Shown here: piece after piece, positions 27,753-27,914 of the stretch
How the letters are laid out: each line of letters opens with the position of its first letter
Position numbering within the stretch: position 1 is the stretch's first letter
From: Candidatus Acidiferrum typicum
GTDB lineage: Bacteria; Acidobacteriota; Terriglobia; Acidiferrales; UBA7541
Direction of reading: 5' to 3'
Length of the DNA: 51,419 nt
Assembly: GCA_025463055.1 (NCBI GenBank)
Contig: JAOAPV010000058.1
Span: forward strand, 1 to 51,419
Made by a program: the position numbers and the translations under genes
The notes under the pieces: model-generated
What the model saw: the letters and a program-made list of their open reading frames with translations, nothing else
Database searches by the model: none
What the model was told of the DNA's origin: nothing

Positions 27753-27784
27753 AAAAAACCCTCCTTGCCAAAGTGCTTGGAGGG
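27753..27784 (-). terminator. Attenuator hairpin in the thrC leader
   Basis: On the minus strand, CCCTCC and GGAGGG arms, with an inner GC/GC pair and AA/AA internal loop, are followed immediately by TTTTTTC. It sits 91 nt before the thrC start and after the candidate riboswitch fold, where premature termination would control the operon. Confidence 0.7.
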
Positions 27785-27799
27785 TCTCAGAAAGCTTCT

Positions 27800-27861
27800 G
27801 GGAACTCTTCTAGCTCTTTAGCAGTTTTTTACGTGGAGCAAGTTGCCCTAAATCGCCACGT
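27800..27861 (-). ncRNA. Candidate SAM-II-like riboswitch pseudoknot
   Basis: On the minus strand, stem P1 is ACGTGG (27861-27856) with CCACGT (27836-27831). The loop contains GATTTA and then GGGCAACTT (27848-27840), which can pair with GAGTTCCC (27807-27800) as P2 with one bulged C, giving an H-type pseudoknot. Between the stems lie an A-run and GCTAAAG, the single-stranded elements I associate with SAM-II (GAUUU in the loop, GCUAAA in the 3' part). SAM-II riboswitches sense S-adenosylmethionine and normally regulate methionine-pathway genes. The link between P1 and P2 is longer than I would expect, so the class call is tentative. Confidence 0.45.
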
Positions 27862-27885
27862 GTCGCCGCAACCGCGGCTGCTTCC

Positions 27886-27914
27886 TTTATCCTTGAAAAA
27901 CAAGGAGATGTCAA
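27886..27914 (-). promoter_or_regulatory. Sigma70-type promoter of the thrC operon
   Basis: On the minus strand, TTGACA (27914-27909) and GATAAA (27891-27886) are separated by 17 nt, the ideal spacing. The start of transcription would fall near 27879, just before the riboswitch-like fold. Confidence 0.6.

Follow-up and report, generated by a model that had tools for sequence, protein, structure and literature searches.

The locus lies in a 5.33-Mb draft genome (98.9% complete) of a soil acidobacterium; the named relatives that match it best are MAGs of acidobacteria, a large number of them labelled group 2. The whole stretch analysed, contig C93 of this genome with 51,419 nucleotides, is called the window here. 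On its minus strand a leader (27914-27753) stands upstream of a thrC-like gene, a ThiS-family gene and two small genes (Table 1). An HtrA/DegP-type protease gene (28128-29735, plus strand) lies divergently upstream of the leader, and a relative is found at that place in 5 of 80 orthologue loci.

Table 1. Features of the leader and the operon in the window
Feature	Positions	Strand	Basis or remark
Sigma-70-like promoter, TTGACA (27914-27909), 17-nt spacer, GATAAA (27891-27886)	27886..27914	-	Sequence
Hairpin GCCGC-GGTT-GCGGC, just 5' of the aptamer	27865..27878	-	Sequence
P1, 6 bp, ACGTGG (27861-27856) with CCACGT (27836-27831), L1 inside	27831..27861	-	Sequence, pairing
L1 with pocket letters GATTT, 27854-27850 (SAM-II G8-U12), and TTGC, 27841-27838 (U20-C23)	27838..27854	-	Numbering as in the accessible part of PMC3764141
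P2a 5' strand GGC, partner 27814-27812	27845..27847	-	Covariation
GCTAAA (SAM-II G42-A47), P2b 3' strand and SAM-contact letters	27817..27822	-	Invariant, 28 distinct aptamers
P2a 3' strand GCT	27812..27814	-	Covariation
Antiterminator 5' strand TGCTAAAGAGCT, overlapping the P2 3' strand	27812..27823	-	Complementary to terminator loop
Terminator loop AGCACTTTGGCA, antiterminator 3' strand	27766..27777	-	Nearly invariant loop, 21 sequences
Intrinsic terminator ACCCTCC/GGAGGGT (27785-27779 / 27764-27758) and T-run to 27753	27753..27785	-	Minimum-energy fold
thrC-like gene, read as metM	26405..27661	-	ATG 27661; in-frame GTG upstream at 27682
ThiS/MoaD-family sulfur carrier gene, metO-like	26088..26399	-	C-terminus SIAGGSR
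YciI-like protein gene, no role given	25720..26043	-	Relative in 5/80 orthologue loci
ABM-domain (monooxygenase-like) protein gene, no role given	25392..25718	-	Relative in 5/80 orthologue loci

The initial annotation had read the leader as a SAM-II-like riboswitch with an attenuator ahead of a threonine-synthase-like operon, and most of the parts it named were found in place: the promoter with its 17-nt spacing, the 6-bp stem ACGTGG/CCACGT with GATTTA in the loop, and the terminator with its T-run, whose arms pair in the minimum-energy fold. The promoter form (TTGAC, 17-18 nt, ATAAA) is kept in 19 of the 21 leaders with enough upstream sequence, the window counted in. In 52 of 54 leaders a script located a hairpin followed by a T-run; on visual inspection, its placement was wrong in L026, L154 and the second copy of L148. 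On the minus strand, pattern scanners missed both the promoter, because its -10 element does not end in T, and the terminator, because its loop exceeds the 8-nt limit of the scanner. At the position of the hairpin 5' of the aptamer, different hairpin sequences were seen by eye in L024, L026 and L029.

According to the accessible part of PMC3764141, the SAM-II letters U10-U12, U20-C23 and G42-A47 are completely conserved. All of these fully conserved pocket letters are kept in the window, within GATTT, TTGC and GCTAAA. Since they match the published SAM-II, P2 is formed by GGC...TTGC of L1 with GC-T-AA...GCT. GCTAAAG, which the initial annotation had located correctly (27822-27816) and had placed between the stems, is itself a P2 strand, pairing as GCTAAAG-AGCT, and not a linker. 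A different P2 suggested by the Rfam consensus line, with L1 paired to letters 5' of GCTAAA, was dropped given the pairs listed in the same part of PMC3764141. P1 is absent when the window leader is folded into nested minimum-energy structures with a program that handles neither pseudoknot nor ligand.

The pseudoknot originally proposed, GGGCAACTT with GAGTTCCC, did not hold up in the comparison of leaders. This pairing can form in the window at about -9 kcal/mol, where it is part of the nested minimum-energy fold, and it comes near -9 kcal/mol in several leaders. However, it exceeded shuffled sequences in only 8 of 53 leaders (mean -6.4 against -6.0 kcal/mol) and is incompatible with the SAM-II P2; taken as P2, it leaves GCTAAA unpaired, unlike the solved SAM-II as described in the available text of PMC3764141. 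We therefore consider it very unlikely that GGGCAACTT:GAGTTCCC is a functional pseudoknot or an alternative apo helix of SAM-II. As that P2 is unsupported, the doubt raised over a long spacing between P1 and P2 falls away.

No Rfam family reached its cut-off in the whole window. In a 451-nt stretch around the leader, SAM_alpha (RF00521) matched over its full length at 22.6 bits (E 0.0059), the lowest E-value among the Rfam matches there. The comparison with this family, which the initial annotation had suggested, thus stayed below the cut-off of 36 bits, and the likewise suggested SAM-V covariance model gave nothing to E 10 in the same stretch. The long-loop SAM-II model RF01726 also matched there over its full length (21.2 bits, cut-off 44, E 0.12). 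Matches to mir-753 (24.2 bits, E 0.014) and, at high E-value, to PyrR and snoRNA families in this stretch were taken as chance. Genome-wide (5.3 Mb), RF00521 matched seven times, best at the leader (E 0.016); the second-ranking match (contig C142, 18.7 bits) falls inside a lytic transglycosylase-like reading frame and was set aside as chance. At E up to 10, RF00521 also responds in 14 of 14 control genomes, so that by itself a weak score would be poor evidence.

The same cut-off was reached by none of 20 class loci (L140-L159) and by 25 of 60 phylum loci (1, 7 and 17 of 20 in three batches); the phylum thus has recognised SAM-II riboswitches. In L251, L254 and L262 they lie within tandem pairs before metM. 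Judged by its sequence, the window form is on the same scale as these recognised elements, below the cut-off, and as it stays under this curated Rfam threshold we class it as a divergent variant. SAM_alpha matches in Acidobacteriota may well already be contained in the Rfam full alignments.

Divergence below the Rfam cut-offs would also be expected of an aptamer with a changed ligand, such as SAH or another adenosyl compound, and small letter changes can switch the ligand, as the available part of PMC10853860 describes for spermidine-sensing SAM-I variants. In the window, however, the SAM-II letters listed as SAM contacts are unchanged and the genes downstream belong to methionine/SAM synthesis, which makes a changed ligand highly improbable.

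Conservation of the aptamer was assessed at three depths. The 51-nt core shows 99% identity per column over 11 sequences, the window included. A second set of 28 distinct aptamers was chosen by a pattern demanding the pocket letters; among 73 class loci, only the truncated L009, L022, L027, L137 and L158 fail this pattern, so the constancy of the pocket letters in the class is real. Standard pairs fill 98.6% of the cells in this set, against 29-43% when the partner strand is slid. In 500 shuffles the paired percentage was reached 9 times, the two counts of double changes 3 and 4 times, the number of pair types twice and the covariation score 33 times. P1 is paired in 99.4% of cells with one double change (C-G to G-C), and P2a (16-18 with 50-52) in 95.2% with one double change (C-G to U-A). 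Double changes are few, two cells in this set, and the sequences are related, so the counts are not independent. P2b is complete but invariant and four of the six P1 pairs likewise never vary, so no covariation evidence comes from these pairs.

The widest set, obtained with a looser pattern from 144 matches, holds 93 distinct aptamers (27 of them taken from class loci and 66 from phylum loci). P2a is short, 3 bp with wobbles, and its pairs are formed in 75, 87 and 87 of the 93; pair 18-50 is CG in 76, UA in 6, UG in 5 and other in 6. The outermost pair of P1 is weak, formed in 57 of the 93. In the comparison across related leaders proposed in the initial annotation, both P2a and P1 vary with pairing kept in the wider leader sets.

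The U10 position is G in 18 of the 93 aptamers. A GAGTT pocket in place of GATTT is followed by a metH-type gene in 19 of 19 cases (L245, L258, L263-L265, L267, L268, L270, L272, L274 and L276-L284), against 10 of 54 GATTT aptamers, the sequences being related. It is possible that GAGTT marks a ligand-specificity or tuning variant. In three metM leaders (L229, L230 and L232) the SAM-contact strand has one extra letter, GTCTAAA for GCTAAA.

The element was followed across genomes with a covariance model of its 51-nt core, built from the 11 sequences. It was found in 51 of 399 class genomes (8 of 136 genera) and 45 of 396 phylum genomes (28 of 211 genera). From 52 class sites 50 loci were fetched (G277 and G327 were left out), and a thrC-like gene follows the element in 48 of the 50, the window being one of them. 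Class locus L137 ends at a contig edge. In L154 (G008) the element stands before asd (NCBIfam) and a gene that looks lysC-like by eye, and has its own antiterminator of different sequence. Tandem copies occur before metM in the class genomes G008, G011, G017, G025 and G041 and in others of the phylum, with a spacing of about 115-122 nt (L148, L149, L155, L156, L157 and others).

In the phylum, 69 loci (29 automatically, 40 by hand) were taken from 88 places, and a pattern search located 73 aptamers in 66 of them, with none in L266, L273 and L285. The downstream gene was defined as the best same-strand match to eleven reference proteins, nine of them scanned with NCBIfam and two, a cysteine desulfurase and a cysteine synthase, labelled by eye. 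The genes 3' of the 73 aptamers were metM (18), metH/MTHFR-type (29), metY (8), metB (6), metZ (6), lysC (1), metX (1) and other (4), where the metB, metZ and metX labels have scores below curated cut-offs. A metM, metH/MTHFR, metY, metB/Z, metX or lysC homologue thus lies downstream of 69 of the 73. Two of the other loci, L248 and L259, have sulfite reductase-like genes by eye.

Across 21 sequences the terminator loop AGCACTTTGGCA hardly varies, a constancy that terminator function does not need, and the strand TGCTAAAGAGCT is complementary to it. In 53 distinct class leaders, many of them near-identical, duplexes of the TGCTAAAGAGCT:AGCACTTTGGCA type have a mean energy of -12.0 kcal/mol against -6.9 when shuffled, and in 47 of these leaders at most 5 of 100 shuffles reach the duplex. 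The six exceptions are the first copies in L148, L149 and L155 and the second copies in L149, L156 and L157; the script found no terminator after the second copies in L156 and L157. With a coarser shuffle, 57 of the 93 wider aptamers passed and 36 were not significant. In 84 of the 93, five or all six GCTAAA letters are paired, a count that is favourable by construction because the program seeks the best pairing.

A TTTRGC motif lies downstream of 63 of the 93 aptamers, compared with 8.5% in mononucleotide shuffles, and 30 are without it. Letter 48, which follows GCTAAA, is compatible with its loop partner in 49 of the 63 (G-C 22, C-G 22, T-A 3, wobbles 2) and does not fit in 14; this count uses the first TTTRGC match, leaves out the 30 aptamers without one and comes from related rows. 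Counting by the last match (46 of 63) was rejected, as some of those matches lie past the terminator.

For the window, the predicted fold contains the antiterminator when the 3' end of the transcript lies in the terminator loop or halfway along the 3' arm. The complete transcript folds into the terminator at -50.7 kcal/mol, against -40.8 with the antiterminator forced; since the complete terminator is the more stable, control would have to be kinetic. That the P2 3' strand is also complementary to the loop of the terminator points to a way in which SAM would bring about termination.

The target enzyme was examined with models, gene neighbourhood and genome content. It passes the NCBIfam thrC model TIGR00260 (282 bits, cut-off 167), and the solved relatives found are threonine synthases. 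These observations would suit a SAM-II switch before a real threonine synthase, with SAM tuning the threonine/methionine branch point. On the other hand, the enzyme stays below the cut-off of the PRK08197 threonine synthase model (277.6 against 303 bits), while two further thrC-like genes of the genome exceed the thrC cut-off and one of them passes PRK08197. A ThiS carrier gene lies downstream in 80 of 80 orthologue loci, the best 80 of 135 found. Neither a MetA match nor a true MetX that could make an acyl-homoserine was found in the genome, and in sister lineages the same operon is under SAM-I (see below). A real threonine synthase is thus unlikely. The C124 candidate for MetX was rejected; it passes the cut-off of the NF005071 hydrolase model and has a signal-like N-terminus. 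Two cystathionine-synthase/lyase-like genes are present in the genome.

The solved chain closest to the carrier is 3dwg_C (E 1.5e-17), which we take to be CysO of M. tuberculosis. Of 103 carriers, 92 have a GG motif among their last 22 residues, terminal in 21 and followed by a tail in the remainder; four of the 11 without GG share a CSYCG tail. On contig C53 of the window's genome (L286), a gene that is cysM-like by eye, a JAMM gene (PF14464) and a second gene that is ThiS-like by eye stand in a row, perhaps a cysteine route via a protein thiocarboxylate beside the metM-metO pair.

In Streptomyces albulus, the homocysteine synthase MetM works with the carrier MetO and has a SAM riboswitch upstream (Hasebe 2024, as summarised in the available part of PMC12172450). 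On the strength of gene neighbourhood and genome content, the window's thrC-like gene is probably a MetM-like, O-phosphohomoserine-dependent homocysteine synthase. Threonine synthesis, the target named in the initial annotation, is therefore probably wrong; an enzyme of the MetM kind would nevertheless draw on the O-phosphohomoserine pool that the annotation had named. Our results suggest that many acidobacterial 'threonine synthase' genes are homocysteine synthases.

Out of 57 orthologues outside the window's own group 20 loci were tested, and SAM-I was found ahead of the thrC-like gene in all 20 (48.1-80.2 bits). Among 30 SAM-I class loci fetched automatically, 29 have a thrC-like gene and one is cut by a contig end. 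Twenty hand-picked SAM-I loci, mostly from the window's own family, have a thrC-like gene in 7, a cystathionine-synthase-like gene in 6, a carrier without a thrC-like gene in 3 and none of these in 4; a further 7 SAM-I loci include 4 with a thrC-like gene. In the window's own family, SAM-I thus also stands upstream of other genes. In L192, L198 and L207, where metM is absent, SAM-I stands before a carrier gene, and the gene after that is lysC-like by eye. The window's genome has no SAM-I over the cut-off (best 15.1 against 44.4 bits), and none in the leader.

SAM-I occurs in 177 of the 399 class genomes and our SAM-II core model in 51; both occur in two (G022 and G098), where about 23 would be expected by chance if both 399-genome draws are taken as identical. 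These genomes may be cases of bin contamination. In both, SAM-I lies before a cysteine desulfurase-like gene, with a cysteine-synthase-like gene next in G098 (by eye). A 2007 survey, in its accessible part, reports no species with both SAM-I and SAM-II (PMC2258182).

A quick tree of 64 enzymes (38 SAM-I, 26 SAM-II) chosen from 169, with a very distant outgroup and SH-aLRT support only, needs two changes of the riboswitch label, and its well-supported branches force two. With at least two forced changes, the riboswitch class has changed repeatedly and was not inherited from one event. The metM of L060, a contig labelled Verrucomicrobia, falls inside Acidobacteriaceae on the tree; the bin is probably mislabelled. 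With moderate confidence, we propose that at one orthologous metM-metO operon in a single bacterial class two unrelated riboswitch classes, SAM-I and SAM-II, were exchanged for one another at least twice and seldom share a genome, and that the conserved, covarying antiterminator of the SAM-II leaders, formed by the P2 3' strand and the loop of the terminator, offers a general model of the transcriptional SAM-II platform.

A plain attenuator, controlled by a leader peptide or a protein and merely resembling SAM-II, would look alike as far as terminator and promoter are concerned, and SAM binding is here a prediction. The pocket letters and the covariation of P2a argue against it, as do the related leaders over the SAM_alpha cut-off and the SAM-I at the same place in sister lineages, and we give this explanation hardly any weight.

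Our analyses indicate, with a probability of roughly 0.86, that the leader is a riboswitch of the SAM-II class in a divergent Acidobacteriota form, acting as a transcriptional OFF switch of a homocysteine-forming operon, where SAM binding, antitermination and the enzyme reaction are predicted. The pairing of a SAM-II class with an attenuator made in the initial annotation is supported by the pocket letters, the covariation in P1 and P2a, the gene context, the SAM-I of sister lineages and the phylum leaders over the Rfam cut-off.

The switch would work as follows. Transcription would start near 27879, as judged from the promoter. At low SAM, TGCTAAAGAGCT would pair with AGCACTTTGGCA in the unfinished terminator hairpin and the polymerase would reach the operon. 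At high SAM, the ligand would lie in the P2 major groove much as the accessible part of PMC3764141 describes for 2QWY, its sulfonium near U11/U21, its adenine near U44 and its methionine end near A47. Bound SAM would lock the GCTAAA-AGCT strand in the P2 pseudoknot, so that the terminator forms. The PLP enzyme and the ThiS-type carrier would probably convert O-phosphohomoserine and a protein thiocarboxylate to homocysteine; with homocysteine as the product of the operon, the switch would be an end-product feedback on methionine/SAM synthesis.

According to the available part of the 2007 survey, transcriptional control by SAM-II had not yet been experimentally established (PMC2258182), and a 2022 paper states, in the text accessible to us, that SAM-II effects on gene expression had been unstudied before it (PMC9373788). 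A supplementary figure of the latter predicts alternative folds of the S. meliloti metZ leader, and may already show an antiterminator similar to that of the window. With the antiterminator model, compensatory mutations become a direct test of transcriptional control by SAM-II. In the open-licence literature, as far as its texts were available, we found no report joining a SAM-II riboswitch to Acidobacteria, and searches of that literature for a SAM riboswitch with threonine synthase or with methionine biosynthesis in Acidobacteria likewise found none. The locus adds a SAM-II lineage hidden by Rfam cut-offs, ties SAM-II to the recently described methionine route from O-phosphohomoserine and a sulfur carrier, and provides a case of riboswitch-class exchange before one orthologous gene.

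Among known systems, SAM_alpha (RF00521; Corbino 2005, PMC1273637, in its accessible part) is similar in its H-type pseudoknot, pocket letters, methionine-pathway targets, upstream promoter and downstream terminator. The window leader differs in its score (22.6 bits, below 36), its short and wobbly P2a, the phylum and the metM-metO target, and in having a conserved pairing between the P2 3' strand and the terminator loop. RF01726 and SAM-V have a related pseudoknot core, and SAM-V superposes on SAM-II according to the available text of PMC6061858. The leader reaches 21.2 of the 44 bits needed for RF01726; SAM-V acts on translation, whereas the window leader has a terminator and no match to the SAM-V model. 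SAM-I (S box, RF00162) has the same ligand, here a predicted one, and serves the same operon in sister lineages with an unrelated fold. The MetM-MetO system of S. albulus, likened only by the part of its description that was accessible, has in common the ThrC-like enzyme, the MetO-type carrier and an upstream SAM riboswitch, which in the window is of the SAM-II type. The carrier type of CysO-CysM-Mec, which we take to be an M. tuberculosis system, resembles the ThiS-type carrier of the window, whose partner is instead thrC-like, the locus with the cysM-like, JAMM and ThiS-like genes standing separately on contig C53.
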